DNA from: Verrucomicrobiota bacterium
GTDB taxonomy: Bacteria; Verrucomicrobiota; Verrucomicrobiia; Opitutales; UBA953
Assembly (NCBI GenBank): GCA_016871415.1
Contig: VHDL01000003.1
Location: 1-64,000 of the forward strand
DNA: 64,000 nt
Reading direction: 5' to 3'
Under the pieces are notes generated by a model that ran no database searches, had not been told where the DNA came from, and saw only the letters and a list, made by a program, of their open reading frames with translations. Position numbers and translations under genes: made by a program. This document shows positions 10,390 to 35,505 of this stretch, in pieces (the first letter of the stretch is position 1; each line of letters begins with the position of its first letter).

Positions 10390-11874
10390 TCAGGCCCCGG
10401 ACTTCTTCTTGCCCTTGCCTTTGCCCTTCTTGGCGCCGGCGGCCTCGGCCGGGGCGGCGGAAGCGTCGTTCGGCCTGGGCATCGGCGCGTTCACCTGCTT
10501 GCGCCACGCGACCAGTTTCTCTCGCAGCTCCTTCGCCTTGTCGGGCATCGAGCCCGCGAGGTTCTTCGTCTCACCGAGGTCCTCCTTCAGATTGTAGAGT
10601 TCCAGCCGTCCGTCCTCGAGATATTCCATCAGCTTCCAGTCGCCCGCGTGGATGAGGCTCACCGGCGTGGTGCGCCAGAGTCCCGTGCCCGCGCCGAGGT
10701 AACCCGGGAAGTGCTGGAAGATCGCCTCACGTCCGAGGCTTGCGTCAGGGCTCTTGAACAGTCCGGCGAGGCTCACGCCGTCGAGCGTCTGGCGAGGTTT
10801 GGGCGCGCCGGCGAGTTCGAGCAGCGTCGGGTAGAGGTCCACGTGCGCCGTGGGGACGTCGGCCGAGGAGCCCGGAAGCGTGCGTCCCGGCCAGCGCACG
10901 ATGAAGGGCACGCGCGTGCCGCCCTCGTAGAGCGAGCCCTTGCCGCTGCGCAGCGGAGCGTTGTCGGTGACGCCCTTGCCGTCTTCACCCGGCGCCTCCC
11001 CCTTCTTCGTGGCCTTGGCTTCGCGGCCCGGCTCGCGGATGAGGCCGTCGGGCCGGCCGTAGCCGCCCACGCCGCCGTTGTCGCTCATGAAGACCACCAC
11101 CGTGTCATCGGCCACGCCGACCTCCTGCAGTTTCGCCATCACCCGGCCGACGCTTTCGTCGACGCTCGCGATCATCGCCGCGTAGGTCGCGCTGTTGTGT
11201 CCGCCCACGACCGGCTTGTCCTTGAAGCGCGCGACCAGGTCCTTCTTCGCGTGGAAGGGCGAGTGCACCCCGAAGTGCGGCAGGTAGAGCAGGAACGGCC
11301 GGTCCTTGTGTCGGCCGATGAAGTCCACCGCGCGGTCCGTCAGCCAGTCGGCCAGGTAGGGCCTGCCGGCCACGTCCGTGGGCGGGCTGACCTTGAAGTC
11401 GAAGTGGGCGCCCATCGAGACCAGCGCCTCGTCGAAGCCGCGCTTCGAGGGATGGAACGCGCCGTTATCGCCGATGTGCCACTTGCCGAACATCCCCGTC
11501 GCGTAGCCCGCCTTCTTCAGCTGGTCCGCGAAGGTGTCCCGGTCGAGCGGCAGACTGGTGACGTTGTCGACCGGACGCAGCAGGCGCTTCGACCAGTCGA
11601 ACCGGTCGACGCCGCCCACCGTGTACACGCCCGTGCGCGCCCCGTACTGTCCGCTGAGCAGGGCCGCGCGCGTCGGCGTGCAGTTCTGGCAGTGGTGGTG
11701 GTTCGTGAGGCGCATCCCACTGGTGGCTAGCCGGTCGATGGCCGGCGTCTCATAATATTTTGAACCGAAGCAGCCGAGATCGGTCCAGCCGAGGTCGTCG
11801 GCCATGATGAGCACGATGTTGGGCTGGCGGGCGCAGAGGGGCAGGGCGGCCAGCAGGAGCAGCAGGAGTCGCAT
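10390..11874 (-). CDS. Exported arylsulfatase-type sulfatase (S1 family)
   Basis: This 494-residue enzyme probably removes sulfate esters from polysaccharides outside the cytoplasm. A signal peptide (MRLLLLLLAALPLCA) is followed by the metal-binding start of the fold (NIVLIMADDLGWTDLG). Next comes the sulfatase signature CTPTRAALLSG, with Cys65 as the residue expected to become formylglycine, and later the LYLPHFGVHSPFH and FMSDNGG blocks. The C-terminus is a lysine/glycine/alanine-rich tail. The ATG at 11874 is chosen over an in-frame start 21 bases upstream because it begins the signal peptide. The formylglycine-generating enzyme is not in this window. Substrate cannot be read from sequence. 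Confidence 0.94.
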   Translation of the reverse strand: MRLLLLLLAALPLCARQPNIVLIMADDLGWTDLGCFGSKYYETPAIDRLATSGMRLTNHHHCQNCTPTRAALLSGQYGARTGVYTVGGVDRFDWSKRLLRPVDNVTSLPLDRDTFADQLKKAGYATGMFGKWHIGDNGAFHPSKRGFDEALVSMGAHFDFKVSPPTDVAGRPYLADWLTDRAVDFIGRHKDRPFLLYLPHFGVHSPFHAKKDLVARFKDKPVVGGHNSATYAAMIASVDESVGRVMAKLQEVGVADDTVVVFMSDNGGVGGYGRPDGLIREPGREAKATKKGEAPGEDGKGVTDNAPLRSGKGSLYEGGTRVPFIVRWPGRTLPGSSADVPTAHVDLYPTLLELAGAPKPRQTLDGVSLAGLFKSPDASLGREAIFQHFPGYLGAGTGLWRTTPVSLIHAGDWKLMEYLEDGRLELYNLKEDLGETKNLAGSMPDKAKELREKLVAWRKQVNAPMPRPNDASAAPAEAAGAKKGKGKGKKKSGA

Positions 11875-11936
11875 CGGGCGTACGCAGGTAAGCACAGTGG
11901 CAACCCCGTGGCACCCGCAAAGTTCCGCCCGGCGGA

Positions 11937-17503: not shown

Positions 17504-17536
17504 GCGGGTAAGGGTGCTTGATTGGTTGGACCCCTC

Positions 17537-19096
17537 ATGCGTCCCTCGTCCCTCCTCGCCCTGCTGACTTCGGCCGCCCTGCTTTCCGCCGCTGAAGACG
17601 GCGCTCAGGTGTACAACACGCTCTGCGCCGCCTGCCACGGGCCCGACGGCAAGGGACTCAACGGCCTGCCTCCCCTCGTCGGCAGCGAATGGCCTAAGGG
17701 CCCGGCCGAGCGCTCCATCAAGATCGTGCTCAACGGCATGACCGGTCCGGTCGAGGTCGCGGGCATGACCTACAATATTGACATGCCTCCGCAGGGCGCG
17801 GTGCTCAGCGATGAGAAGATTGCCGCCGCGCTCACCTACGTGCGCGACAAGTTCGCCGGAGGCGCTGGCGCGGTGACTCCCGCCCAGGTGGCCGCGGTCC
17901 GCGCCCAGACCACCAAGCGCGCGACCCCGTGGACCGCCGCCGAGCTCCTCAATGCGCACCCCTTCCCGCCCGCAAAGACCGCGCTGAAGAACCTCGTGGG
18001 CATGATGTACCAGGGCGAGTGGAAGACCCTCCCCGACTTCTCCGCGCTCAAGCCCGCGCTGATGGAGGACTTCAACGCCGGCGTAATCGATCCGGCCCAG
18101 TCGGGCCTGAAGGACCATTTCGCGATGGTCTGGACAGCGCAGTTCGAGGCCAAGGAAGACGGCAAATATAACTTCGTCTTCGACTGCGACGACTTCGGCG
18201 CCCTCTACGTCGGCGGAGAGCGCATCGCCGAAATCAAGGGCATCGGCCCCGTCGGCGGCCGCCGCAAGGAGGTTCCCGTCATCCTTAAGAAGGGCCTGAC
18301 TCCAATCCGTCTCGAATACGTCGAGTTCGCCGGCCACGAGGTCGTCGTCCTCGGCTACAAGGGGCCGAAGGACAAGGAGATCAAGTGGCTCTCCAAGACC
18401 AAGGCCAACGCGCCCAAGCCGCGCGTGTCCATCCCGATCGAGGCCAAGGACGGTGTCGCCGCGATCTACCGCAACTTCATCGACAAGACCACGCCGCGCG
18501 CGATCGGCATCGGCTTCCCGAACGGACTCAACCTCGCCTACAGCGCGGATAACCTCGCCGCGGAGCTCATCTGGACTGGCAAGTTCATGGACGGCGGCCA
18601 CCACTGGACCGATCGTGGCGCCGGCAACGAGCCGCCCGCGGGCACCAACGTGATCAAGCTCTCCGATGGTCCCGGCGTCGCCCTCGCCTCGGGCGAGGGC
18701 TCCGTCGTCCGCTTCGACCGCAAAGGCGAAGGCAAGGAATGGACTTTCTCCGCGGTCAAGGTCGCCGCCGAATTCAAGGGCTATGACCTCGACGCCGCGG
18801 GCAACCCGACCTTCCGCGCGGCGGGGGAGGGCGTCTCACTCACCGACGCCTGGATTCCCGAAGCGATCGCCGGCAAGCCCGGCCTGAGGCGCACCCTCAA
18901 ATCCGAGGGCGACCGGCCCGTGACGGTTGTGCTCGCGCGCGACCTCACTTCAGAGGGCGCCGACGGCGCCACCGTCCTCGGCGGCTCGTTGAGCCTCCGC
19001 GCCCTCTCCGGCCCTCAGCCCAAGGCCGCCGACAAGCTGCTCACCGTCACCCTGAAGCCCGGCGAGACCGTCGTGCTCGGCTACTCCTTCCGCTGA
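17537..19096 (+). CDS. Exported cytochrome c / PA14-domain protein
   Basis: A 519-residue periplasmic protein. A signal peptide (MRPSSLLALLTSAALLSAA) is followed by a single-heme cytochrome c domain with CAACH at 30-34 and a downstream Met-containing YNIDMPPQGAVLSDEKIAAALTYVR. A PA14-like carbohydrate-binding domain follows (about 155-280; FEAKEDGKYNFVFDCDDFGALYVGGERI). The C-terminal domain (from about 300; IGFPNGLNLAYSADNLAAELIWTGKF) also occurs in the five-heme protein at 30596-32653. This architecture is common in PVC genomes in saccharide-oxidation loci. It is the first gene of a pair with the propeller protein 20 bases downstream. The ATG at 17537 is preferred over 17522 for the signal peptide. 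Confidence 0.87.
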   Translation: MRPSSLLALLTSAALLSAAEDGAQVYNTLCAACHGPDGKGLNGLPPLVGSEWPKGPAERSIKIVLNGMTGPVEVAGMTYNIDMPPQGAVLSDEKIAAALTYVRDKFAGGAGAVTPAQVAAVRAQTTKRATPWTAAELLNAHPFPPAKTALKNLVGMMYQGEWKTLPDFSALKPALMEDFNAGVIDPAQSGLKDHFAMVWTAQFEAKEDGKYNFVFDCDDFGALYVGGERIAEIKGIGPVGGRRKEVPVILKKGLTPIRLEYVEFAGHEVVVLGYKGPKDKEIKWLSKTKANAPKPRVSIPIEAKDGVAAIYRNFIDKTTPRAIGIGFPNGLNLAYSADNLAAELIWTGKFMDGGHHWTDRGAGNEPPAGTNVIKLSDGPGVALASGEGSVVRFDRKGEGKEWTFSAVKVAAEFKGYDLDAAGNPTFRAAGEGVSLTDAWIPEAIAGKPGLRRTLKSEGDRPVTVVLARDLTSEGADGATVLGGSLSLRALSGPQPKAADKLLTVTLKPGETVVLGYSFR

Positions 19097-19116
19097 ACCG
19101 CGCCGCACCACCTCTC

Positions 19117-20673
19117 ATGAAGCACCTCACCGTCATCGCCCTGCTCGCCTGCGTCGCGGGCCTGCAGGCCGCGCCCGCCAAGACGCCCAAGAAGGGCAAG
19201 CTCGTCCCCGCCGAGGCCGTCAAGGCCGCCGAGGCCAGGCAGTCGGAATTCTACGAACGCGTCGAGATCCCGACTCCGGCCGGCGAGGTCTGCGAAGTCG
19301 GATCGATCGCGTTGCTGCCTGGCAAGAAGGTCGCCATCGGCACCCGCCGCGGCGACGTCTGGGTCGTCGAGGGCGCCTACGACGCCGACCTGTCCAAGGT
19401 GAAGTGGACCAAGTTCGCCTCCAACATCCACGAGCCCCTCGGGATGTTCTGGAAGGAGGGCTCGCTGTTCGCCATGCAGCGTCCGGAGTTCACCCGCATG
19501 ACCGACCGAGACGGCGACGGCCGGGCCGATCGTTTCGAGACCATCTGCTCCAAGTGGGGCGTGAGCGGCGATTACCACGAATACGCCTTCGGTTCCGATC
19601 CCGACAAGGACGGCAACGTCTGGGCCGTCTTCTGCCTGACCGGATCGTTCCATTCCCATGCCCCGTGGCGCGGCTGGGGCGCCAAGATCACCCCGGACGG
19701 CAAGTTCATCCCCGTCGCGTCCGGCATCCGTTCTCCCGGCGGCATCGGCGCCAACGGCGAGGGTGACGTGTTCTACACCGACAACCAGGGCGTGTGGAAC
19801 GGCTCCTCCTCCCTGAAGTGGCTCCGCCCCGGATCCTTCCAGGGTAACCCGACCGGCAACAAGTCATACGCCCTCGCCGACTTCCCCGCGCCGCCCGAGC
19901 CGCAGAGCGGATCGCGCATCCTCACCGAGCGCCTGAAGCATCCGGCATTCGTCCCGCCCGCCGCCTTCCTGCCGCACGGCAAGGTCGGCAATTCGCCCTC
20001 CGGAGTCGGCTGCGACCTGGCCCGGGGCAAGTTCGGTCCCTGGCAGGGCCAGATGCTCGTCGGGGAGCAGACCGCTTCGCAGGTCCAGCGCGTCGCCCTC
20101 GAGAAGGTCAACGGCCTCTACCAGGGCGCCGTGTTCCATTTCCTCGGCGGCTTCGAGGCCGGCCTTGTGCCCGTGCGCATGGATCAGGAGGACGGCACGC
20201 TCTTCATCGGCGGCACCAACCGAGGCTGGGGGTCGCGCGGCTCGAAGCCCTTCACCTTCGAGCGCGTGCGTTTCAAGGGCCGGACGCCCTTCGAGATGCG
20301 CGCCATCGCGGCTAAGCTTGACGGCTTCGAGATCGAGTTCACCCATCCCGTCGACGCCGCCGCCGCGGCCGACGTCGAGAACTACGCCTTGGACACCTTC
20401 ACTTACATCTACCAGTCCAGCTACGGCAGCCCCGAGGTGGACCAGACCGAGCCGACCGTGAAGTCGGCCGTCGTCTCGGCCGACGGCCTGCGCGTGCGTC
20501 TCGTCGTCGACGGACTCGTGCGCGGCCACGTCCATCACCTCGTCGTGACCGACGTGAAGTCCAAGTCCGGCGAGACCCTCTGGCATACCGAGGCCTGGTA
20601 CACCTTGAACGAGCTTCCGACCAGCGTCACGAGCTTGAAGTTGCCGCCCGTCCCGGTTGACCTGAGCTTGTAA
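19117..20673 (+). CDS. Exported beta-propeller dehydrogenase-like protein
   Basis: A 518-residue protein with a signal peptide (MKHLTVIALLACVAGLQAAP) and a propeller of the PQQ-glucose/sorbosone dehydrogenase-like type used in PVC bacteria: IGTRRGDVWVVEGAY, EPLGMFWKEGSLFAMQRPEFTRM, DRDGDGRADRFET and GDYHEYAFGSDPDKDGNVW. The last ~120 residues form a separate Ig-like beta domain beginning FEIEFTHPVDAAAAADVENY. It has no heme motif of its own and probably gives electrons to the cytochrome encoded just upstream. It is clearly homologous to the protein at 32650-34134. Substrate unknown, likely a sugar or sugar derivative. Confidence 0.85.
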   Translation: MKHLTVIALLACVAGLQAAPAKTPKKGKLVPAEAVKAAEARQSEFYERVEIPTPAGEVCEVGSIALLPGKKVAIGTRRGDVWVVEGAYDADLSKVKWTKFASNIHEPLGMFWKEGSLFAMQRPEFTRMTDRDGDGRADRFETICSKWGVSGDYHEYAFGSDPDKDGNVWAVFCLTGSFHSHAPWRGWGAKITPDGKFIPVASGIRSPGGIGANGEGDVFYTDNQGVWNGSSSLKWLRPGSFQGNPTGNKSYALADFPAPPEPQSGSRILTERLKHPAFVPPAAFLPHGKVGNSPSGVGCDLARGKFGPWQGQMLVGEQTASQVQRVALEKVNGLYQGAVFHFLGGFEAGLVPVRMDQEDGTLFIGGTNRGWGSRGSKPFTFERVRFKGRTPFEMRAIAAKLDGFEIEFTHPVDAAAAADVENYALDTFTYIYQSSYGSPEVDQTEPTVKSAVVSADGLRVRLVVDGLVRGHVHHLVVTDVKSKSGETLWHTEAWYTLNELPTSVTSLKLPPVPVDLSL

Positions 20674-20684
20674 GGTAGGGCTGA

Positions 20685-20736
20685 CCGCCTCGAGCAGCCG
20701 TGGTTGAGCGAGGGCGCTCAACCTTGCCCGAGGCGG
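20685..20736 (+). other. Large nested hairpin between propeller gene and symporter gene
   Basis: A perfect 9-bp stem GGTTGAGCG/CGCTCAACC (20702-20710 and 20715-20723) with a 4-base AGGG loop is nested inside a perfect 8-bp outer stem CCGCCTCG/CGAGGCGG (20685-20692 and 20729-20736). The 9- and 5-base single-stranded arms form an internal loop. No T-run follows, so it is not a classical intrinsic terminator. It may separate the symporter transcript from the upstream pair, stabilise the 3' end, or act in the leader of the symporter. Confidence 0.6.
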
Positions 20737-20831
20737 AGGGCCCGGGCGCTAATGCTCCCATCTGCTCAAATAGGGCGGGGGAGCGCGGTTGCCACGTCGC
20801 GCATGCTACGGGATAAAATCCTCACCCCGCC

Positions 20832-22715
20832 ATGCGCCTTCAGACCCTCGACTGGATCATCGTCGCGATCTCAATCCTCATCTGCTTCGTGCCGGCGCTG
20901 TTCTTCGCGCGTCGGTCGGGTCAGAGCACCTCGGAGTTCTTCGCTTCCGGACGTTCCGTGCCGTGGTGGCTGGCCGGCCTCTCCATGGTGGCGACGACCT
21001 TCTCGTCCGACACCCCCAACTGGGTGACCGAGCAGGTGCGCAAGTTCGGTGTGGCCGGCAACTGGCAGTGGTGGTCGCAAGCCCTGACTGGCGTGGCCAC
21101 GGTGTTCTTCTTCGCCCGTCTCTGGCGTCGCTCGGGGGTGATGACCGACCTTGAGTTCTACGAGCTGCGCTACTCCGGCCGCGAAGCCTCCCTCGTGCGC
21201 GGCTTCCGCGCTGTGTACCTCGGGCTCTTCTTCAATTGCTTCATCATGGGCATGGTGACCCTGGCCGCCTGCAAGATTGCGAACATCCTCTTCGGCCTGC
21301 CGGCCTGGCAGACCATCGTCATCTGCGGCGTGCTCAACGTCGTCTTCGCCGCGCACTCCGGACTCTGGGGCGTGCTGGTCATCGACATGCTGCAGTTCTT
21401 CATCAAGATGACCGCCGTCTTCGCGGCCGCGTGGTTCTCGCTCGTCGAGGTGGGCCGCCGTCTGGCTGGGGACGCCTCCGTCACCGCTGGGCTCAGGTCG
21501 CTCTACGGCGCACTGGCGGACAGGCAGGTCGTCACCAGCGCCCGGGGCGTGCCCGCCCTGTCGGCCTACGACGGCTCCGGTCAGCGCGTCCTGGAGCTGC
21601 TGCCCAACTTCGCCTTCGAGGAGCTCGCGCTGATGACCTTTATCCTGCCCATGGCCGTGAGCTGGTGGGCCAACTGGTATCCCGGCGCCGAGCCCGGCGG
21701 CGGGTCGTACATCGCCCAGCGCATGCTGGCCTCAAAGTCGGAGAAGGACTCCCTTGGCGGCACGCTGTTCTTCAACGTGGCGCATTACGTTATGCGGCCC
21801 TGGCCTTGGATCGTGACCGCGCTGTGCTCCATCGTGGTCTATCCCGACCTGGCTTCCATCAAGGCCGCGTTCCCCGAGGCGGATCCGGGTCTCATCGGCC
21901 ATGACTCGGCCTTCCCAGCCATGCTCAAGTTCATGCCGGTCGGCTTCGTCGGACTGATGGTCGGGGGGCTGATCGCCGCCAATTCATCCACCATCCTCAC
22001 GCACCTCAACTGGGGCTCCTCCTACCTCGTGCACGACTTCTACCGCCGCTTCCTCGTGAAGGGCGCCGAAGAGTCGCATTACGTCAACGTCGGCCGCGTC
22101 TCGACCGTGCTGCTTTATGTCGTGGCGGCCCTCCTGAGCCTGACGATGTCCTCCGCCCAGCAAGCTTTCCAGATCCTCCTCTCCATCGGCGCCGGTACGG
22201 GCCTCATCTACGTCGCGCGCTGGTACTGGTGGCGCGTCTCGGCCTGGTGCGAGATCGTCGCGATGGTCATGTCGCTGGTTACCTCGGTGGCCGTGCCGCT
22301 CGTGCTTCCGGATGTCGGATTCGCCAAGACGACGCTGATCCAGGTGGGCATCACCACCGTGTCCTGGCTCGTCATCGCCTTCGTCGGTCCGCAGACCAAT
22401 CCGGCCACGCTCGCCGACTTCTGCCGTAGGGTGCGTCCGTCCGGTCCGGGCTGGGACGCAGTGCGTCAAGCCGCCGGCATCCGTGAGGAAACCACGGCAG
22501 GGTCCGCCGGCATGGCACTGCTCGGCTGGATCATGGGTTGCATCGCGATCTGGTCGGCCCTCTTTGCCCTGGGTCACTTCCTGTATGCCGTAGGCGAGCC
22601 CGGTCATGTGAACCGTAACGCCGCCTGGACGTTCGGGGCGGTCGCGCTCGTCTCAGCCTCCCTGACCCTCAGGGCCGCGCGCGTCCTGTGGAAGGATGGA
22701 CAGTCCGACGCCTGA
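20832..22715 (+). CDS. Sodium:solute symporter (SSF family)
   Basis: A 627-residue multi-spanning inner-membrane transporter of the SSF family, which couples inward sodium movement to uptake of sugars, amino acids or other solutes. Typical elements are the N-terminal DWIIVAISILICFVPALFFARRS, the FFASGRSVPWWLAGLSMVATTFSSDTP region (TM1-2), and further repeated hydrophobic helices to VALVSASLTLRAARVL. Given the neighbours (cytochrome/propeller pair upstream, aldose epimerase convergent), a sugar is the likely substrate, but this is inference from context. A TAAAAT box lies 12 bases before the ATG. Confidence 0.93.
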   Translation: MRLQTLDWIIVAISILICFVPALFFARRSGQSTSEFFASGRSVPWWLAGLSMVATTFSSDTPNWVTEQVRKFGVAGNWQWWSQALTGVATVFFFARLWRRSGVMTDLEFYELRYSGREASLVRGFRAVYLGLFFNCFIMGMVTLAACKIANILFGLPAWQTIVICGVLNVVFAAHSGLWGVLVIDMLQFFIKMTAVFAAAWFSLVEVGRRLAGDASVTAGLRSLYGALADRQVVTSARGVPALSAYDGSGQRVLELLPNFAFEELALMTFILPMAVSWWANWYPGAEPGGGSYIAQRMLASKSEKDSLGGTLFFNVAHYVMRPWPWIVTALCSIVVYPDLASIKAAFPEADPGLIGHDSAFPAMLKFMPVGFVGLMVGGLIAANSSTILTHLNWGSSYLVHDFYRRFLVKGAEESHYVNVGRVSTVLLYVVAALLSLTMSSAQQAFQILLSIGAGTGLIYVARWYWWRVSAWCEIVAMVMSLVTSVAVPLVLPDVGFAKTTLIQVGITTVSWLVIAFVGPQTNPATLADFCRRVRPSGPGWDAVRQAAGIREETTAGSAGMALLGWIMGCIAIWSALFALGHFLYAVGEPGHVNRNAAWTFGAVALVSASLTLRAARVLWKDGQSDA

Positions 22716-22723
22716 GCCCTCGC

Positions 22724-23878
22724 TCAGGAGCGTTCGTTAATCACCCCGAAGCGCAGGACCATCGTCTGCGCGTACTTCTCGCCCGGGCGCAGCACGCCGG
22801 AAGGGAAGCCCATGCGCTGGAACTCCGGGCGGTTCGGTGAGTCGGGGAAGAGTCCGGGCTCGAGGCAGAAGCCCTGGCGGAAGCCGTAGGGCGCCGACCA
22901 GCGGCCCTGCACCGTGCCGTCGAGGAAATTGCCGGTGTAGAGCTGGACGCCCGGGGCGTCGGTGAGCAGTTGCATCGTGCGGCCCGACGAGGAATCGCGG
23001 ACCTCGGCCGCGAGACGTATCGCGCCGGGCTGGCCGAGCACGTAGCAGTGGTCGTAGCCGCGTCCGAGGCGCAACTGCTCATGCGGCTCTGAGATGCGGG
23101 CGCCGATGGCGGTCTCCCTCCGGAAGTCGAAGGGCGTCCCTTCCACGGCGGCCAGCTCTCCCGTGGGGATGAGGTTGGCGTCGACCGGCACGAAGCGCTC
23201 GGCCGCCAGACGCAGGCGGTGGCCGGTGATCGCGCCGCTGCCGGCCAGGTTGAGAAACACGTGGTTCGTCAGGTTGCACGCCGTGGGCGCGTCGCATTCG
23301 GCCTCGAAGCGGATTGTCAGCTCATTGCACGCGTCGCTGAGCGCGTAGGTGACGGTCGCCCTGAGCTCTCCCGGGTAGCCGCCTTCGCCAGCCGGGCTCG
23401 TCACCTTCAGCGTGACCTCGCCCGCGTCGACCCGACGGACCGCGGCCGAGCTCCAGAGTTTGGCGTCGAGCCCGTGGGCGCCGCCGTGCAGGTGGTTCGG
23501 CCCGTCGTTACGATCCAGCGCGTGCGTCATGCCGTCGACGGTCAGCCGGCCTTGCGCCAGCCGGTTGGCGTAGCGCCCGACCGTGCTGCCAAGGAACGCA
23601 CGGTGCCGTTGCAGCGCCTCGGCCGTGTCCAGCCCGAGCGTGACCTCGCCGACCTCCCCGCGCACGTCCTGAACCCGGATTGACGTGAGCGTCGCGCCGT
23701 AGGCGCTGACCGAGACCGACATCCCGTGCGCGTTAGTCAGCGTGTGCAGCCGGGCCTCCCGTCCGTCGGAGAGGGCGTGCGTGACCGCGACATGGCTACC
23801 GGGCCGGCGGCGGCGCAGGAGTGCGCACGCGAGTCCGGCGGCAGCGCAGGCGAGCAGGGCCAGGGCGGGGAGTTCCAT
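22724..23878 (-). CDS. galM: Aldose 1-epimerase with N-terminal membrane anchor
   Basis: Mutarotase that interconverts alpha and beta anomers of galactose, glucose or related sugars. The 384-residue product carries the galactose mutarotase fold: YGATLTSIRVQD, TVGRYANRLAQGRL, the substrate-binding PNHLHGGAHGLDAKLW, and LTNHVFLNLAG. Near the end, GVQLYTGNFLDGT and FCLEPGLFPDSPN supply the catalytic Glu region. The first 20 residues are hydrophobic (LPALALLACAAAGLACALL) and followed by basic residues, which suggests a membrane anchor or export signal, unusual for the cytoplasmic enzyme. Convergent with the symporter gene with 8 bases between. Confidence 0.92.
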   Translation of the reverse strand: MELPALALLACAAAGLACALLRRRRPGSHVAVTHALSDGREARLHTLTNAHGMSVSVSAYGATLTSIRVQDVRGEVGEVTLGLDTAEALQRHRAFLGSTVGRYANRLAQGRLTVDGMTHALDRNDGPNHLHGGAHGLDAKLWSSAAVRRVDAGEVTLKVTSPAGEGGYPGELRATVTYALSDACNELTIRFEAECDAPTACNLTNHVFLNLAGSGAITGHRLRLAAERFVPVDANLIPTGELAAVEGTPFDFRRETAIGARISEPHEQLRLGRGYDHCYVLGQPGAIRLAAEVRDSSSGRTMQLLTDAPGVQLYTGNFLDGTVQGRWSAPYGFRQGFCLEPGLFPDSPNRPEFQRMGFPSGVLRPGEKYAQTMVLRFGVINERS

Positions 23879-27732: not shown

Positions 27733-28908
27733 TCACACCGACCCCGCGCCCGAGGCCCGCAGCTTGCGGAACTTGCCCGGCGTCATCCCGTAGCGGGCTC
27801 TGAAGACCGACTGCAGGTAGTGGGAGTGCCGAAAGCCCGTCTGATTCGCCACCGCCGCGACCGTGAGGCGGGTCTCACGCAGGAGCCGTTCGACCTCGGT
27901 GAAGCGCACGCGGTGGATCTCCTCCTTGGGCGACCGACGCAGCGCGGCCTTCATCCGTCGGTCGAGCGTGCTGCGCGAGGCGTTGAGGCGGCGGCAGAGG
28001 GCGTTGACGTCGAGTCCGGACAGCGTCTGCTCGCGGATGATCCTCAGCGCCTGGGCGACGAGCCGGTCGGGATGCGCGATGAGGCCCGAGGAACCCCGCA
28101 CGACCATGCCCTTGGGCGGGATGAGCGTCGGGCCGGCGGGCGCCCGGCGGCCGCGCATCAGTCGGTCGAGCAGCCCCGCCGCCGCGTAGCCGACCGCCCG
28201 GCCGTCGAACTGCACGCTGGAGAGCGTCGGCGTCGCGAACCCGCAGAGCGTCTCCTCGTTCTCCGCGCCGACGACCGCGACCTCTTCCGGCACGGCCAAT
28301 CCGCCGCGTCGGCAGGCCTCGAGCAGTCGCACGCCGAGCTGGTCGTTGGCTGCGAACACCGCGACGGGCTTGGGCAGGCCGGTCAGCCAGCGGACCAGCC
28401 GCCGCTGGGCCTTCTCCCAGTCCTCGGTGCGTTCCGACAAGGTCTCCGGCAGTTCATGGCAGGCGTGGCCGAGTTCCGCCAGAGCCTCGGCGTAGTTGCG
28501 CACGCGCTCGGTGAAGAAGGGCTCGGTGTGCAGGCTGTGGACCGCGAAATGCCGGTGGCCGCGCTCCACGAAGTGCTCGGCGACCATCCGGCCGATACGC
28601 ACGTTGTCGCTGCCCACGAAGGGCAGACGGGGGGAGAGGACCGGGGAGCGCAGTTCCACGGCCGGCAGGCCGGTCGCAGCGACCAGCGCCGCGGTTTCCT
28701 CGGAGAAGGTTCGCACGAGCAGCCCGTCGCCGTCCCAGTCCTTCAGCCAGGACGGCGGCGTGGAGTCCGAGGCCCGCAGCTCGAGGTACGACGACCAGGG
28801 TCCCCGCTCGGCCACGAAGCGCCGGACGCCGGCCAGAATCTCCCGGGCGTAGGTGCGGCTGGTCTCGATGAGCAGGGCGACCCGGGGGATGCGGCGACGG
28901 GCGGGCAT
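27733..28908 (-). CDS. XylR-type transcriptional regulator (LacI-like sensor + AraC helix-turn-helix)
   Basis: A 391-residue regulator. Residues about 8-265 are a periplasmic-binding-protein-like sugar sensor (RVALLIETSRTYAREILAGVRRF, PFVGSDNVRIGRMVAEHFVERGHRHFA, VFAANDQLGVRLLEACR). Residues about 285-385 are an AraC-type DNA-binding domain with two helix-turn-helices, ending TGFRHSHYLQSVFRARYGMTPGKFRK. This is the layout of E. coli XylR, common in Verrucomicrobiota sugar loci. It is divergent from the PfpI/TIM barrel/cytochrome operon and is its likely regulator. ATG 28908 is chosen over an upstream in-frame start because it begins the conserved sensor. Confidence 0.92.
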   Translation of the reverse strand: MPARRRIPRVALLIETSRTYAREILAGVRRFVAERGPWSSYLELRASDSTPPSWLKDWDGDGLLVRTFSEETAALVAATGLPAVELRSPVLSPRLPFVGSDNVRIGRMVAEHFVERGHRHFAVHSLHTEPFFTERVRNYAEALAELGHACHELPETLSERTEDWEKAQRRLVRWLTGLPKPVAVFAANDQLGVRLLEACRRGGLAVPEEVAVVGAENEETLCGFATPTLSSVQFDGRAVGYAAAGLLDRLMRGRRAPAGPTLIPPKGMVVRGSSGLIAHPDRLVAQALRIIREQTLSGLDVNALCRRLNASRSTLDRRMKAALRRSPKEEIHRVRFTEVERLLRETRLTVAAVANQTGFRHSHYLQSVFRARYGMTPGKFRKLRASGAGSV

Positions 28909-28929
28909 GGTGATGAAAAAACTGACCTT

Positions 28930-28940
28930 TTGTGATACAA
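28930..28940. promoter_or_regulatory. Candidate operator between the XylR-type regulator and the saccharide operon
   Basis: TTGT-GAT-ACAA is a short perfect dyad in the 71-base AT-rich region between the divergent starts. It is the sort of site a LacI/AraC-type dimer could bind, but short palindromes also arise by chance. Confidence 0.3.
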
Positions 28941-28979
28941 CCTTGTAATGACGGCGAGGGCAACCGCGGATACAATGTG

Positions 28980-29666
28980 ATGATGGACCCCTTCGCACTC
29001 CGCCCGAGGTCCGCCCAGGAGGCCCCCAGGGGCGCCGGCGGACTCATCGACAACCGCAACCAGGGCTCGATCTCCTCGGGCGCCCACCTGCCCGCCTCCG
29101 CCGGCAAGCCCAAGGTGCTCGTGGTCATCGGCGACGCCGCGGAGACGGTCGACACGCTCTACCCGTTCTACCGCTTGATCGAGGCCGGCTTCCAGCCCGT
29201 GGTGGCCGCGCCCACCGTGCGTCCCTACAGCATGGTGATGCACGAGGTGAAGCCCGGCTGGACGATCACCAAGGAGTGGGAGGGCTACTCGATCAACGCC
29301 GACGTGGCCTTTAGGGACATCCGGCCCGAGGACTACGCCGGCATCTTCTTCAGCGGCGGCCGGGCGCCGGAATACCTCCGCGAGGACGAGGACCTGCTCC
29401 GCGTCACGCGCTGGATGTGGGAGCACGGGCGGCCGATGGCCAGCGTCTGCCATGGCGTCGAGATCCCCGCCCGCGCCGGCATCGTCAAGGGCCTGCGTAT
29501 GGCCACGGTGCCCAAGTGCAAGTTCGACCTCGAGGTCTGCGGCGGCGTCTTCGTCAACGAGCCTTGCGTGATCGACCGCCACATGGTCAGCGGCCGCACC
29601 TTCCATGACAACGGACACTTCGTCGGCCCTTGGATCAGGATGCTGGAGGCGTCGGTCCGCCGATGA
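28980..29666 (+). CDS. DJ-1/PfpI family protein
   Basis: A 228-residue protein of the class I glutamine-amidotransferase-like DJ-1/PfpI superfamily. It has a core VLVVIGDAAETVDTLYPFYRLIEAGFQPVVAAP, the acidic YAGIFFSGGRAPEYLRED region, and the nucleophile elbow SVCHGVEIP with Cys157. Members include proteases, glyoxalases and hydratases; the exact activity here is unknown. It is the first gene of the operon and its stop overlaps the next start (ATGA at 29663-29666). Two ATGs in tandem (28980 and 28983) could serve as the start. Confidence 0.88.
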   Translation: MMDPFALRPRSAQEAPRGAGGLIDNRNQGSISSGAHLPASAGKPKVLVVIGDAAETVDTLYPFYRLIEAGFQPVVAAPTVRPYSMVMHEVKPGWTITKEWEGYSINADVAFRDIRPEDYAGIFFSGGRAPEYLREDEDLLRVTRWMWEHGRPMASVCHGVEIPARAGIVKGLRMATVPKCKFDLEVCGGVFVNEPCVIDRHMVSGRTFHDNGHFVGPWIRMLEASVRR

Positions 29667-30592
29667 GCGCCCTGACTTCACGGCGCGACTTCCTGCGCAC
29701 GGCCGCCCTCGCCGCCGCGGCGGCCGCTTCGCCCGCCGCCCTCGCCGCCGACGGCAAGTTCCGCCTGCGCTACGTGCTCTCCTCGGCGATGTACGGCTAC
29801 GCCCCGCTCGCGGAGGTCCTGCCCGAGGTGGCCAGGACCGGCAGCGAGTCGATTGACATCTGGTGCAAGGTGCACGGCGACCAGCGCGAGCAGGCCGCCG
29901 CGCTCGGTGACGAGGCCTTCGCCGCGCTGCTGAAGAAGCACGACGTGCGGCTCGGCGTGAGCACGCGCTATCCGCTCGGGCCGTTCAAGCTCCAGGACGA
30001 GATGGCCTGGGTCAGGAAGCACGGCGGCACCACGCTCGTCTGCGGCAGCACCGGCCCCAAGAACCCCTCCGGCGCCGCCGCCCGGGCCGCGATCGCCAAG
30101 TTCCTCGAGGAGATGAAGCCGCACGCGGCCAAGGCCGAGGAGCTCGGCCTGCGCATCGCCATCGAGAACCACTCGAACCAGGCCCTGCATCACCCCGACT
30201 CCATCCGCGCCTTCGCCGAACTGAACAAGTCGCCCGCGCTCGGCGTCGCCTTCGCGCCGCACCATCTCCATGAGTGGGCGGACCAGATCCCCGCGCTCCT
30301 GCGCGACCTCGGGGCGAAGAACCTGCCGTTCATGTATTTCCAGGAGCATTCCGATGGCATCTTCAAGAAGGCCTCCAAGGAGGAGGAACTGCGCCAGATG
30401 CCCGGACGGGGCAAGCTGGACTACCGTCCGATCGTGAAGGCGCTGCGCGACATCCGCTTCGACGGGCTCGTCGAGCTCTTCATGCACCCGACCCCGCGAG
30501 GCATCCCCGTGCTGCCCACCACCCCCGAGGTCACCGCGCTCATCAACGAGTCGCGCGCCTACGTGGAGAAGTGCCTGCGCGAGACGGCCTGA
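29663..30592 (+). CDS. Tat-exported sugar phosphate isomerase/epimerase-like TIM barrel
   Basis: A 309-residue protein of the xylose-isomerase-like TIM-barrel (AP endonuclease 2) family with a twin-arginine signal (SRRDFLRTAALAAAAAASPAALA). Barrel motifs include RYVLSSAMYGY, GLRIAIENHSNQALHHPDS, LGVAFAPHHLHEW, YFQEHSDG and FDGLVELFMHP, which supply the usual Glu/His metal ligands. Family members isomerise or epimerise sugars; folded export by Tat with a bound metal suggests action in the periplasm. The start overlaps the upstream stop by ATGA and the next gene begins 3 bases after its stop. Confidence 0.9.
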   Translation: MSALTSRRDFLRTAALAAAAAASPAALAADGKFRLRYVLSSAMYGYAPLAEVLPEVARTGSESIDIWCKVHGDQREQAAALGDEAFAALLKKHDVRLGVSTRYPLGPFKLQDEMAWVRKHGGTTLVCGSTGPKNPSGAAARAAIAKFLEEMKPHAAKAEELGLRIAIENHSNQALHHPDSIRAFAELNKSPALGVAFAPHHLHEWADQIPALLRDLGAKNLPFMYFQEHSDGIFKKASKEEELRQMPGRGKLDYRPIVKALRDIRFDGLVELFMHPTPRGIPVLPTTPEVTALINESRAYVEKCLRETA

Positions 30593-30595
30593 GCG

Positions 30596-32653
30596 ATGCG
30601 CGCCGCCGCCCTCATCCTGCTCGCCGTCGCCTCGGCCTCCGCCGCGCCCGTCGTCACGGGCTTCGAGCGTTTCCACGCCGCGGCGCCCACGGCCGAGGGC
30701 GGCCGGCTACTCTACAACGAGCTCGGTTGCGTGAACTGCCACGGCGGCGACACGGGCCTGCCCGCGCAGCGCGGCCCGGCGCTGGCGACGGTCTCCCAGC
30801 GCGCGCAGGGCGAATGGCTGCGCAAGTTCATCGCCGATCCGCAGTCGGTCCATCCCGGCGCCGTCATGCCGCAGGTCCTGACGAAGGCCGATGAGAGGAC
30901 CCTCGTGGCGATCGAGCACTACCTGGCTTCCCTCGGGCCTAGGACGAAGGTGAAGCCGGCGGACATCCGGCATGTGAACGCCTCGCGCGGCAGCGGTCTC
31001 TACCACTCGCTCGGCTGCGTCGCCTGCCACGCGCCGGACAAGGCCTTCGTGCCGGACGGTGGCGCTCCGAAGGACTCCGAGTTCACGCACGCCTCCGTGC
31101 CGTTCCCCGACCTCAGGGCCAAGTACTCGCTGGAGTCGCTGAGCGCCTTCCTGCAGGACCCGCTCAAGGTCAGGCCGGACGGTCGCATGCCGCGCATCGC
31201 GATGGAGAACCAGGACGCGATCGACATCGCCGGCCATCTCCTGGCCTTCGAAGGCAGCGACGGACGCGTCGGCCCGTGGGTCACCCCGGCCACGGTCGAC
31301 CGCGAGCTGGCCATCACCGGCCGCAAGGCGGTCATCGCCGCCCGTTGCGCGGCCTGCCACGAGCTCCCGAAGGACGCCGCCGCCACTCCGGTCGCGCTCG
31401 GCCGCAAGGAGGGCGGCTGTCTCGACTCCGCCCACGCCAAGGGACCCCGCTACGCGCTCACGGACGCGCAGCGCTCCTCACTGAAGCTTTTCCTGGCCGC
31501 GCGCGACAAGGCCGCCGATCCCAAGCTCGCCGCCGACCTCACCTTGCAGGCGCTCAACTGCGTCGCCTGCCACGAACGCGACGGCAAGGGCGGCCCTGAC
31601 GGGGCCCGGAAGGCGTTCTTCGAGGGCGATCACAACCTCGGCGACACCGGCCGCTATCCTCCGCCTCTCACCGGCGTCGGCGGGAAACTGCGGCCCGAGT
31701 GGCTGGCCAAGGTCCTCGATGGGGAGAACCGCGTTCGTCCCTACCTTCGCACGCGCATGCCCGTCTACGGCAAGGCCACCGACGGACTCGCACGGCTCCT
31801 CGGCGTCGCCGACGCGCGTCCTGCGCTCAAGTTCGAGGGCGGCGATGACTCCGCCGGACGGAAGCTCCTCGGCACCGAAGGCGGCGCCGGCTGCATCACC
31901 TGCCACCGGTGGGGTGACCGGCCTTCGCTCGGCATCCAGGGGCCGGACATCAGCAACATGGCGGCGCGCCTGCAGGAGGGCTGGCTCCGCGACTATCTCA
32001 TCAACCCCGCTGGCTACCGCCCCGGCACGCTGATGCCCTCCTTCTGGCCCGGCGGGAAGTCCTTCAACCCCGCCATCCTCGGCGGCGACACCGACCGCCA
32101 GATCGCCGCCATCTTCAAGTTCGCCGAGAGCGCCAACGGCGAGCCCGAGGGCTTTCCCAAGAACCGCAACGGCGAGTTCGAGATCGTGCCCAAGGACCGT
32201 CCCGTCGTTCAGCGCGCCTTCATGGAGGACGTCGGCGTGCGCGCCATCCTCGTCGGATTCCCGACCGGCGTGCATCTCGCCTACGACGGCGAGAAGGGCG
32301 GCCCCGCCCGCGCCTGGAAGGGCAGGTTCTTCGACGCCTACCTGACGTGGTTCTCCCGCTTCCCGATCTTTGAGAAGCCGCTCGGCGCCCAGGTCGTGAA
32401 CTGGCCGAAGTCCTCGGGCCGGTTCCTCGGCTACCGTCTCGATTCCAAAGGCAACCCCACCTTCATCGCCGAGCAGGCCGGCGTCCGCGTCGAAGAGACC
32501 TTCGAGGGCGTCGGCGAGGGACTGCGCCGGACCGTGGTCTGGAAGCCGACGCCGGACTTCGCGCCGGTCATCCATCATCCCGCCGGACTGGAGTTCGCCG
32601 AGAATCCCGGCTCCGCGGCCGGCCGGCGCGTCTTCACCTACCTTTGGAAATGA
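30596..32653 (+). CDS. Five-heme c-type cytochrome, exported
   Basis: A 685-residue protein with a signal peptide (MRAAALILLAVASASAAP) and five CxxCH heme-binding motifs: CVNCH at 45, CVACH at 141, CAACH at 251, CVACH at 322 and CITCH at 433. It appears to be a string of cytochrome c modules. The C-terminal ~180 residues (VGFPTGVHLAYDGEKGG..AWKGRFFDAYLTWFSRF) are homologous to the C-terminal domain of the protein at 17537-19096. Likely role: collecting electrons from the partner dehydrogenase or propeller protein and passing them to the respiratory chain. It overlaps the next gene (ATGA at 32650-32653). Confidence 0.88.
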   Translation: MRAAALILLAVASASAAPVVTGFERFHAAAPTAEGGRLLYNELGCVNCHGGDTGLPAQRGPALATVSQRAQGEWLRKFIADPQSVHPGAVMPQVLTKADERTLVAIEHYLASLGPRTKVKPADIRHVNASRGSGLYHSLGCVACHAPDKAFVPDGGAPKDSEFTHASVPFPDLRAKYSLESLSAFLQDPLKVRPDGRMPRIAMENQDAIDIAGHLLAFEGSDGRVGPWVTPATVDRELAITGRKAVIAARCAACHELPKDAAATPVALGRKEGGCLDSAHAKGPRYALTDAQRSSLKLFLAARDKAADPKLAADLTLQALNCVACHERDGKGGPDGARKAFFEGDHNLGDTGRYPPPLTGVGGKLRPEWLAKVLDGENRVRPYLRTRMPVYGKATDGLARLLGVADARPALKFEGGDDSAGRKLLGTEGGAGCITCHRWGDRPSLGIQGPDISNMAARLQEGWLRDYLINPAGYRPGTLMPSFWPGGKSFNPAILGGDTDRQIAAIFKFAESANGEPEGFPKNRNGEFEIVPKDRPVVQRAFMEDVGVRAILVGFPTGVHLAYDGEKGGPARAWKGRFFDAYLTWFSRFPIFEKPLGAQVVNWPKSSGRFLGYRLDSKGNPTFIAEQAGVRVEETFEGVGEGLRRTVVWKPTPDFAPVIHHPAGLEFAENPGSAAGRRVFTYLWK

Positions 32654-34134
32654 AAGCCGTAGCCATCGCCCTCCTCTCCGCGGCCGCGCTCGGCGCCGCG
32701 CCCTCCTATGATATCGCCGACATCCTGACCGCGAGCACCGCGGCCGACACGCGCGCCAAGGACTGGAAGCCCGGCCAGGGCCTCGCCCTGGAGGTCAGCG
32801 GCATGGACTGGACAGCCGACGGACGGCTCGCGCTCTGCATCCGCAAGGGCGAGGTCTGGCTTCTCGACGGCGTGCTCGCGCCCAGGCCCGACAAAGTCGG
32901 CTTCAAGCTCTTCGCTTCCGGACTCCACGAGCCGCTCGGACTCCTCCGCGACGGCAAGGACCTCCTCGTCACCCAGCGTACCGAGACCACGCGCCTGCGC
33001 GACACTGACGGCGACGGCGTCGCTGACGAGTATCTGACCGCCGGCGCGGGCTGGAACGTCTCCGGCGCCTACCACGGCTACGCCTACGGTCCCAAGCGCG
33101 ACGGCAGGGGCGACCTCTGGGTCACCCTCAACGTCGACATGGGGGATCACTCCGACAACAAGGCGCCGTGGCGCGGCTGGGGCGGGATCATCGGCAAGGA
33201 CGGCCGCTTCGTGCCCATGGCGGCCGGCATGCGTTCTCCCTGCGGACTCGGGACGAACCGCGAGGGCGACATGTTCTGCGTCGACCAGCAGGGCACCTGG
33301 ATTCCCACCACCCCCATCTATCACCTCCGCAAGGGCGCCTTCTTCCTCAATCCTGAGGGCATCGCGTCCGAGAAGCTGCCCGATTCGCCCCTGAGGCTCT
33401 CCGCGAAGATTCCTGAGAAGCGTCCGTATCCCGAGGCCGTCAGGGCCTTACCCGAGATGCGTCCGCCCGCCGTCTGGATGCCCTACAACAAGATGGGCCG
33501 CAGCGGGACCGACCTCGTCACCTGCGATGCCGGCGGCAAATTCGGCCCCTTCGACGGGCAGATGTTCGTGGCCGAGTTCACCGACGCCAAGATCAGCCGC
33601 GTCTTCATGGAGAAGGTCGGCGGGGAATATCAGGGCGCCTGCTTCCCCTTCGTCGGCGGCTTCGCCTCCGGCATCGTGCGCCTGACGTTCGCGCCGGACG
33701 GCTCGCTGATGGTCGGCATGACCAGCCGGGGCTGGTCTTCCCTCGGCACCAAGGCCTACGGCCTGCAGCGGCTCCGCTACAACGGCAACGTGCCCTTTGC
33801 GATCAAGGAGATGCGGGCCCGTCCTGACGGCTTCGAGCTCGTCTTCACCAAGCCCGTCGACCGGGCGCGCGCCGCCGACGTCGCCTCCTACCGCATGAGC
33901 AGCTACACACTGCTCTATTCCGGCGCGTACGGCAGCGACGAGATCCTCACCGCGCCGAATCCCGTGACGTCCGCCGTCGTGGCCGCCGACGGCCTGAGCG
34001 TGCGGCTGAAGGTCGGGGCCCTCCGTGAGCTACACATCCATGAGCTGCATGCCGACGGCGTGAAGTCCGAAGCGGGCGAGCCGCTCGACCATGCGGACGC
34101 CTACTACACCCTGAACCGCATCCCGCAGAACTGA
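32650..34134 (+). CDS. Exported beta-propeller dehydrogenase-like protein (second copy)
   Basis: A 494-residue exported protein with signal peptide MKAVAIALLSAAALGAAP and a propeller closely related to the one at 19117-20673. Shared features are CIRKGEVWLLDG, EPLGLLRDGKDLLVTQRTE, DTDGDGVADEY, GAYHGYAYGPKRDGRGDLW and the C-terminal beta domain with VDRARAADVASY and YYTLNRIP. It lacks a heme and is translationally coupled (ATGA) to the five-heme cytochrome, as expected for a donor-acceptor pair. ATG 32650 is preferred over 32644 because of the overlap. The substrate is probably a sugar or sugar acid; this is not readable from the sequence. Confidence 0.86.
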   Translation: MKAVAIALLSAAALGAAPSYDIADILTASTAADTRAKDWKPGQGLALEVSGMDWTADGRLALCIRKGEVWLLDGVLAPRPDKVGFKLFASGLHEPLGLLRDGKDLLVTQRTETTRLRDTDGDGVADEYLTAGAGWNVSGAYHGYAYGPKRDGRGDLWVTLNVDMGDHSDNKAPWRGWGGIIGKDGRFVPMAAGMRSPCGLGTNREGDMFCVDQQGTWIPTTPIYHLRKGAFFLNPEGIASEKLPDSPLRLSAKIPEKRPYPEAVRALPEMRPPAVWMPYNKMGRSGTDLVTCDAGGKFGPFDGQMFVAEFTDAKISRVFMEKVGGEYQGACFPFVGGFASGIVRLTFAPDGSLMVGMTSRGWSSLGTKAYGLQRLRYNGNVPFAIKEMRARPDGFELVFTKPVDRARAADVASYRMSSYTLLYSGAYGSDEILTAPNPVTSAVVAADGLSVRLKVGALRELHIHELHADGVKSEAGEPLDHADAYYTLNRIPQN

Positions 34135-34170: not shown

Positions 34171-35505
34171 TTGTCCAGCCCGCCCACCATCCGTTCGGAG
34201 ATCGGTCCGACCCTCCGTCTGGCCGTCCCGATCATGCTCGGGATGCTGGGCTACGGCCTGATGTTCGTGATCGACGTCGCCATGGCGGGCCGGCTCGGCG
34301 AAGTGCCCCTCGCGGCATCCGCGCTCGCCGCCAACATCACCTACATCCCCTACGTCTTCGGCATCGGCCTCGTCGGGGCCGTCACCGTCTACCAGTCGCA
34401 GGAGAACGGGGCCGGTCATGCCGAGTCCGCGCCCGCCGTGCTGCGGCACGGCACCGTGCTCGGCCTGGCGTCCGGCGTCATCCTCGCCGTCCTGACCCAC
34501 GCCTTCGCTCCTTTGATTCCGCATCTCGGGTCCGCGCCCGAGGTGGCCGCCGAGGCCCACGACTTCTACGTCATCATGGCCTGGGCGATGGTGCCCGGCC
34601 TCGCCTTCCACGGCCTGCGTTCGTACCGCGACACCCAGCACCAGCCCTGGATCTCGCTCGCGTGGCTGACCTTCGGCCTCGCGCTCAACGTCCTCCTAAA
34701 CTGGCTCTGGATGTACGGCAACTGGGGCTTTCCCGCGCTCGGCCTCGCCGGTGCCGGCTGGGCGACCCTCGTCTCCCGCGTCGCCATGTTCATCGGGCTC
34801 TGGCTGCACCCCGGACGCGGCGAGGTGCGTTGGGCCGACGGACTGCAGCGCACGGTCTTCGCCCGACTCCTGCACACCGGCCTGCCCGCGGGCCTGCACA
34901 GCATCAGCGAGGTGGGCATCTTCGCCATCGTGCCGATCCTGGCCGGGTGGATCTCGCCCACCGCGCAGGCCGCGCACCAGGTGGCCGTCAGCACCGCCAG
35001 CGCCGCATTCATGCTTCCCCTCGGCCTGGGCATGGCCGCCGGCATCCGCGTCGGCGAGGCTTACGGAGCGCGTGACTCCGCCCGCGTGCGCGTCGTCGGC
35101 TGGGGCGCGCTCATCCTCGGCGGACTCATGATGACCTTCTATGGCGCCGCCATGGTGTTGCTCCGCCCGTGGCTGCTCGGTCTCTATGACGTGGCCGGAA
35201 CGGCCACCGGCCAGCTCGCGACGGCGCTGCTCATCTGGGCGGCCCTCTGGGCGCCGTTCGACGGCGTGCAGGTCGTGGCGGCTTACCTGCTCCGCTCCGT
35301 CGACCAGGCCTCCTGGGCCTCCCGGGGCGTCGCCATCGTCTACTGGGTCGTGACCTTGCCCCTGGCCCTGCTTCTGGCGTTCCCTGTGGGCCTCGGCGCG
35401 GAGGGCATCTGGATCGCCTTGGCGACCGGGCTCATGCTCGTGGCCCTCGCCCTCGGCTGGAAGTTCCGGCGCGCGACCCGTCACATTCCCGACGCGGGAA
35501 ATTGA
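34171..35505 (+). CDS. MATE family multidrug/Na+ antiporter
   Basis: A 444-residue inner-membrane protein with twelve predicted helices and MATE features: LAVPIMLGMLGYGLMFVIDVAMAGRLGEVPLAA at the start, PWISLAWLTFGLALNVLLNWLWMYG in the first half and the corresponding LPLGLGMAAGIRVGEAYGA in the second. MATE proteins export drugs, toxic metabolites or natural products in exchange for Na+ or H+. Translation probably starts at TTG 34171, 36 bases after the preceding gene, with a G-rich stretch just before it. It may be the last gene of the saccharide operon or independent. Confidence 0.9.
   Translation: MSSPPTIRSEIGPTLRLAVPIMLGMLGYGLMFVIDVAMAGRLGEVPLAASALAANITYIPYVFGIGLVGAVTVYQSQENGAGHAESAPAVLRHGTVLGLASGVILAVLTHAFAPLIPHLGSAPEVAAEAHDFYVIMAWAMVPGLAFHGLRSYRDTQHQPWISLAWLTFGLALNVLLNWLWMYGNWGFPALGLAGAGWATLVSRVAMFIGLWLHPGRGEVRWADGLQRTVFARLLHTGLPAGLHSISEVGIFAIVPILAGWISPTAQAAHQVAVSTASAAFMLPLGLGMAAGIRVGEAYGARDSARVRVVGWGALILGGLMMTFYGAAMVLLRPWLLGLYDVAGTATGQLATALLIWAALWAPFDGVQVVAAYLLRSVDQASWASRGVAIVYWVVTLPLALLLAFPVGLGAEGIWIALATGLMLVALALGWKFRRATRHIPDAGN

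Follow-up and report, generated by a model that had tools for sequence, protein, structure and literature searches.

Oxidation of sugars in the periplasm with transfer of electrons to cytochromes is already known. The direct-electron-transfer flavin adenine dinucleotide (FAD) glucose dehydrogenase combines a catalytic subunit with a multihaem cytochrome subunit, an arrangement whose working is analogous to the one proposed below. In the C-glycoside and 3-oxo-sugar pathways (DgpA-C, CarB-C), the oxidation is carried out by oxidoreductases of the Gfo/Idh/MocA family, and a 2024 study has reportedly described a 3-keto glycan pathway of Bacteroides. For propellers of the glucose/sorbosone dehydrogenase type (GSDH, PF07995), the available text of one source assigns roles to a catalytic histidine and to arginines binding the cofactor pyrroloquinoline quinone (PQQ), and mentions uptake of PQQ from outside, as in E. 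coli (PMC6881789). The available part of another describes how, in C-glycoside deglycosidase, Glu147 binds the metal and the base His149 takes a proton from C2 of the 3-oxo-sugar (PMC8563793). For freshwater Verrucomicrobia, a role of Planctomycete-specific cytochromes in carbohydrate metabolism was suggested in 2017, in a text whose available part states that nothing was known of the roles of these cytochromes in Verrucomicrobia (PMC5615132). Here we describe a four-gene operon of a Verrucomicrobiota bacterium (Opitutales; UBA953) that may encode a periplasmic unit for oxidative sugar processing. It is located in a 64,000-nt window (the whole stretch of DNA analysed) of contig VHDL01000003.1 of assembly GCA_016871415.1, a draft genome of 2.2 Mb with a completeness of 99.5%. 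Gene order, linkage, purifying selection, protein families, folds and the relationship of the propeller to GSDH were determined by calculation.

Results

Gene layout and conservation of the operon

The operon encodes, in this order, a protein of the DJ-1/PfpI family, a triosephosphate isomerase (TIM) barrel with a leader of the twin-arginine translocation (Tat) type, a five-haem cytochrome c, and a propeller (Table 1). The genes for the PfpI protein and the TIM barrel share an ATGA overlap (29663-29666), three bases (30593-30595) separate the TIM barrel gene from the cytochrome gene, and the latter overlaps the propeller gene by a second ATGA (32650-32653). The reading frames at these coordinates agree with a first-pass annotation made from the sequence alone, which had proposed four coupled genes divergent from a regulator of LacI-like and AraC type.

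Within the genus, 24 of 37 genomes, counting that of the window, contained an orthologue of the TIM barrel; among 20 further genomes of the order, one gave a weak match. Scanning genome contigs yielded 67 loci, and the relatives of the genome are for the most part metagenome assemblies named Opitutae or Opitutales. These belong mainly to Opitutae and Verrucomicrobiales; some are filed under Spartobacteria, one under Planctomycetota, and one under Bacteroidetes. They were split by script into 36 close loci (common clpP/MATE neighbours or a TIM barrel identity of at least 66%) and 31 distant loci. Neighbours were counted by tblastn, using only loci with enough contig, and diverged orthologues can be missed in these counts (e.g. 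at L145). Among the close loci, pfpI was found upstream in 32 of 33, the cytochrome gene downstream in 31 of 32, and the propeller gene in 25 of 26. The corresponding counts for the distant loci were 23 of 31, 16 of 27, and 14 of 23. Genomes without a propeller at the TIM barrel locus carry a propeller homologue elsewhere in 12 of 13 cases. Seven comparisons against L047 and L061 gave ratios of nonsynonymous to synonymous substitution rates (dN/dS) between 0.06 and 0.18, i.e. the genes are under purifying selection. Linkage in 67 loci and these low ratios together indicate that the gene set exceeds chance. The conserved co-occurrence that the first-pass annotation had named as its own check thus reaches well beyond the genus.

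Linkage was also assessed starting from the propeller. Of 387 genomes of the phylum searched by profile, 35 contained the propeller, and 20 places, mostly the best-scoring ones, were inspected (L144-L163; L144 lies on the same contig as L094). A cytochrome match adjoined the propeller in 19 of them, the exception being L163. Nine of these loci (L144-L152) had a full-length cytochrome of the five-haem type and were accompanied by the TIM barrel in six, by PfpI in five, and by both in four cases. At L145, PfpI was present and the slot of the TIM barrel was filled by a different Tat-type TIM barrel, with myo-inosose-2 dehydratase as its best NCBIfam relative (well below the cut-off). Neither TIM barrel nor PfpI was found in the examined stretch of L148 and L149, and the eleven loci L153-L163, mostly with a paralogous type of propeller, gave no match to either. 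In L150-L152, the gene order was TIM barrel, PfpI, cytochrome, propeller.

Some loci contain additional genes. A TonB receptor gene is placed between those for PfpI and the TIM barrel in the distant loci L087 and L094, and a sulfatase gene between those for the TIM barrel and the cytochrome in the close locus L073. Sulfatase genes are also found nearby in the distant loci L100, L101, and L103. The window itself has a sulfatase gene (10390-11895, minus strand) about 17 kb away from the operon. In the Verrucomicrobiales loci L096, L105, L107-L110, and L113, the PfpI and TIM barrel genes occur as a pair without cytochrome and propeller; three of these pairs (L096, L105, L107) are flanked by the same two gene families (in L096, a class-V aminotransferase and a metallophosphatase).

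Features of the encoded proteins

The structural model of the propeller (predicted local distance difference test, pLDDT, 75.1) shows six blades at residues 18-379 followed by a C-terminal beta domain, with low confidence around residues 165-240, a stretch expected to contain part of the putative site. PQQ sugar dehydrogenases gave the best fold match for residues 18-379 (2ism, Z 20.5, root-mean-square deviation 3.5, 269 aligned residues; 3a9g, Z 20.2, deviation 3.8, 282 aligned), with SMP30-type lactonases following within one Z unit (4gnc, Z 19.6). Sequence profiles separated the two groups. The profile of the wider propeller family (A6, including the paralogous type) was matched to GSDH with a probability of 96% over 280 columns (E 4.4e-9), as against 24% over 60 columns for SMP30/SGL lactonases, which served as control; GSDH and SGL profiles matched each other with 6.5%. 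By these profiles, the propeller is related to the PQQ sugar dehydrogenases and far less so to the SMP30 lactonases. In the alignment of the A6 and GSDH profiles, Arg195 is placed at a GSDH arginine and Arg344 at one of the two C-terminal arginines; Arg344 is not retained in the paralogous propellers. A comparison of the propeller family with E. coli YliI alone (hhalign) gave 0.5%, and searching PDB sequences with the propeller profile returned nothing useful. The only Pfam/NCBIfam matches of the propeller were DUF7133 and TIGR02604, both sub-threshold; for TIGR02604, the score was 33.7 bits with a cut-off of 122.2, and the propeller sequence has no CXXCH motif.

The cytochrome has five CXXCH motifs (cysteines at residues 45, 141, 251, 322, and 433), all of them invariant in the aligned sequences. 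Its C-terminal beta domain (about 32168-32650; model pLDDT 86.9) is common to the partner cytochromes of both propeller types. Foldseek returned no match below E 0.001 for this domain. The best VIA rows were YidC (Z 8.2), followed by domains of GH38, PL33, and LacZ (Z 6-7), and the model would allow a sugar-binding supersandwich as a possible assignment. No PSCyt domain was matched.

The TIM barrel has the motif SRRDFL and an alanine-rich leader, for which Pfam and NCBIfam Tat matches were weak and below the cut-off. Glu168-x-His170 is invariant in the aligned sequences and has the same spacing as Glu147/His149 of C-glycoside deglycosidase, as given in the available part of PMC8563793. The genome has 11 further PF01261 members, of which a single one (L197) shows Glu-x-His at the corresponding strand; the motif is thus uncommon, yet not unique.

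In the PfpI protein, Glu55, Cys157, and His158 are invariant in the aligned sequences. We take these residues, roles included, to be the Glu-Cys-His site of DJ-1/PfpI proteins. The protein scored 110.5 bits for the PfpI/YhbO subfamily TIGR01382, below the cut-off of 139.05, and its nearest PDB entries were DJ-1 homologue D (presumably from Arabidopsis) and an archaeal PfpI. According to scripted hydropathy (not SignalP), the PfpI reading frame starts with a Sec-like leader in 26 of 57 loci and with a Tat-like leader in L097. In the remaining loci, including L047, the close relative of the window, no leader was seen or the start was cut off. Leaders in only some of the relatives suggest that PfpI was recruited to the exported set in some lineages.

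Regulator and upstream region

The regulator was scanned against Pfam from start 28929, i.e. with seven residues more than the gene at 27733-28908. Its earlier label, XylR-type, fits the architecture of a LacI-like sensor fused to an AraC helix-turn-helix, and fails at the N-terminal XylR domain (PF22177, 21.3 bits with a cut-off of 27). Of the loci with 2 kb of upstream sequence, 19 of the 31 close ones and 7 of the 27 distant ones have a divergent orthologue in that region; it is missing next to the operon in the other 12 close loci. In L047, L051, L062, L066, and L072, clpP adjoins pfpI and the regulator is not beside the operon; it was seemingly lost or relocated in some members of the genus.

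The stretch TGAC.AAAAACCT is conserved between regulator and pfpI in relatives (L048-L112), with a variant form at 28910-28960 of the window. It was considered as an operator, a reading that we do not claim because the stretch could encode the N-terminus of the regulator.

Related modules in the same genome

A second operon of the genome, on contig C5 (L221:4026-8978), encodes on one strand a GSDH propeller (PF07995, 127.7 bits), a Tat-type TIM barrel (PF01261, 70 bits), and a haem propeller (TIGR02604, 346.7 bits), the GSDH and TIGR02604 scores being above the cut-off. It represents an independent instance of the propeller/TIM barrel combination and supports the proposed sugar oxidation. Matches to TatC and two to COX1 (haem-copper oxidase) indicate that an export route and a terminal oxidase are present. 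The window also contains a paralogous module (17522-23878), in which genes for a cytochrome, a propeller, and a symporter are followed by an opposed gene for aldose 1-epimerase; this order is repeated in the congener locus L160. The MATE gene after the operon (34171-35505) was not counted as a member, its downstream position being found in close loci only.

Table 1. Genes of the operon, its regulator and the paralogous module in the window
Feature	Coordinates	Strand	Evidence
DJ-1/PfpI-family gene pfpI	28980-29666	+	PF01965 97.3 bits, above cut-off; 25 aligned sequences; N-termini
Tat-exported xylose-isomerase-like TIM barrel gene	29663-30592	+	PF01261 (AP_endonuc_2) 63.2 bits, cut-off 31.1; 34 aligned sequences
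Five-haem cytochrome c gene	30596-32653	+	PF00034; 28 aligned sequences; domain alignment and model
GSDH-related propeller gene, presumed sugar dehydrogenase	32650-34134	+	Model, fold matches, profile comparison and control
XylR-type regulator gene, divergent from operon	27733-28908	-	PF13377 (Peripla_BP_3) 133 bits, PF12833 (HTH_18) 66.5 bits, both above cut-off
Paralogous one-haem cytochrome with PA14 and same C-terminal domain (18398-19093)	17522-19096	+	
Paralogous propeller, 43% identical over 458 aligned positions	19117-20673	+	PF23500 35.9 bits, above cut-off
Sodium:solute symporter beside paralogous module	20832-22715	+	PF00474 70.8 bits

Discussion

We propose, with an about even chance of being right, that propeller, cytochrome, TIM barrel, PfpI protein, and regulator constitute a periplasmic unit for oxidative sugar processing. 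The propeller would take two electrons from a hydroxyl group of a mono- or oligosaccharide, using external PQQ or another cofactor, and the five-haem cytochrome, whose gene overlaps that of the propeller, would pass them on to the respiratory chain. The exported TIM barrel may then isomerise, epimerise, or eliminate on the resulting keto sugar; Glu168 and His170 would take the positions of metal ligand and base. We place the TIM barrel after the propeller because of its relatives, i.e. the 3-oxo-glycoside enzymes and the inosose-dehydratase-like substitute at L145. Reactive dicarbonyl side-products would probably be scavenged or converted by the PfpI protein, in the periplasm of many relatives and, as the sequence suggests, in the cytoplasm of the present species. 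A sugar is the expected signal of the divergent regulator. In a more specific version, the operon would serve a respiration-linked breakdown of glycans via keto sugars in the periplasm, with an NAD-free (nicotinamide adenine dinucleotide-free) propeller, the cytochrome as electron drain, the exported TIM barrel, and PfpI acting on a dicarbonyl product; this we consider improbable.

Several observations speak against the proposed sugar-processing unit. The propeller has no Pfam GSDH (PF07995) match at E 0.01, and the profile of its close family alone (A2) was matched to GSDH with only 34%. Its His142 lies one column off the catalytic histidine of GSDH, and the second C-terminal PQQ arginine is lost. 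Neither pqqE nor the PqqC-containing family PF03070 was found in the genome at its completeness of 99.5%; PQQ would therefore have to be imported, or the propeller may rely on some other cofactor. The metal aspartate of the TIM barrel family is replaced by Ala198, which indicates a rebuilt site, and at this position the metal site of the C-glycoside deglycosidase alpha subunit (Glu/Asp/His/Lys/Glu, with Glu-x-His) is not matched. The PfpI protein of the window has no signal peptide and would be cytoplasmic in this species. Finally, the cytochrome gene is not beside the TIM barrel gene in 11 of 27 distant loci.

Three other explanations were considered. If the propeller were a hydrolase, lactonase, or binding protein, the cytochrome would serve another donor, e.g. 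a sugar dehydrogenase encoded elsewhere. The near tie of the lactonase 4gnc with GSDH in fold comparison, the incomplete PQQ site, and the failure to find PQQ genes are in line with such a non-redox propeller; we nevertheless regard it as unlikely in view of the far longer and stronger profile match to GSDH than to SMP30 and of the cytochrome match adjoining 19 of 20 propellers. The same two results, the GSDH relationship and the adjoining cytochrome, agree with part of the first-pass annotation, which had the TIM barrel act on a sugar, the propeller oxidise it, and the cytochrome take the electrons. The linkage of the four genes beyond the genus and the TonB receptors and sulfatases of some loci are in its favour as well. 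Its order of steps, with the TIM barrel making the substrate of the propeller from a sugar, is reversed in our proposal. Although the superfamily includes epimerases and isomerases and the TIM barrel gene precedes the dehydrogenase gene, gene order is not reaction order, as the arrangement in L150-L152 illustrates. The Glu-x-His motif resembles that of enzymes acting on 3-oxo-glycosides, and the substitute at L145 is similar to inosose dehydratase, which handles a keto product, so that we give the TIM-first order little credence.

It is similarly doubtful that PfpI and the TIM barrel form a stress or repair unit clearing damaged or reactive sugars, with the propeller-cytochrome pair as a separate neighbour. 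Relatives of PfpI have been named deglycases, and the pair without cytochrome in the Verrucomicrobiales loci listed above would suit such a unit. In the window, however, all four genes overlap or almost touch, they occur together in most close loci, and the divergent regulator is of a sugar type.

Comparison with known systems

No description of the four-gene combination, with its Tat-type TIM barrel and PfpI protein, was found in the open-licence literature, judged by titles and the beginnings of abstracts, and in this respect the impression of an unfamiliar combination in the first-pass annotation holds. Many propellers and cytochromes of Verrucomicrobiota are annotated without function. The operon, a four-gene unit that has a sugar-type regulator and is conserved across several orders, provides a small set of proteins for a direct test of the proposed sugar oxidation.

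Soluble PQQ aldose sugar dehydrogenases (PF07995, e.g. Asd/YliI and sGDH) share with the operon propeller the six blades, a profile relationship over 280 columns, and Arg195. They differ from it in that the operon propeller is below Pfam detection, is missing one C-terminal PQQ arginine, and has an extra C-terminal beta domain. AA12 pyranose dehydrogenase likewise pairs a propeller with a cytochrome, according to the available text of PMC6881789. Compared with PF07995 and AA12 enzymes, the operon has a separate five-haem c-type partner, and searches of its genome yielded no genes for PQQ synthesis. Propellers related to that of the operon (DUF7133/TIGR02604, below the cut-off) also occur in the haem-binding CxxCH proteins TIGR02604 and TIGR02603 of Planctomycetes-Verrucomicrobia-Chlamydiae (PVC) bacteria. 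In contrast to these and to the Planctomycete-specific cytochromes, the operon carries propeller and haems on separate proteins and adds PfpI and a Tat-type TIM barrel.

The catalytic subunit of the direct-electron-transfer FAD glucose dehydrogenase has a fold unrelated to the operon propeller. The C-glycoside deglycosidases and 3-oxo-sugar pathways likewise join an oxidation to a TIM barrel with Glu-x-His, as far as the available part of PMC8563793 describes them. They have, however, a beta-sandwich subunit, whereas oxidation by the operon would be periplasmic and cytochrome-linked, and the metal aspartate of its TIM barrel is replaced. Should its substrate prove to be a keto sugar, this TIM barrel would represent an exported counterpart, linked to a cytochrome, of the oxidise-then-eliminate routes for C-glycosides.

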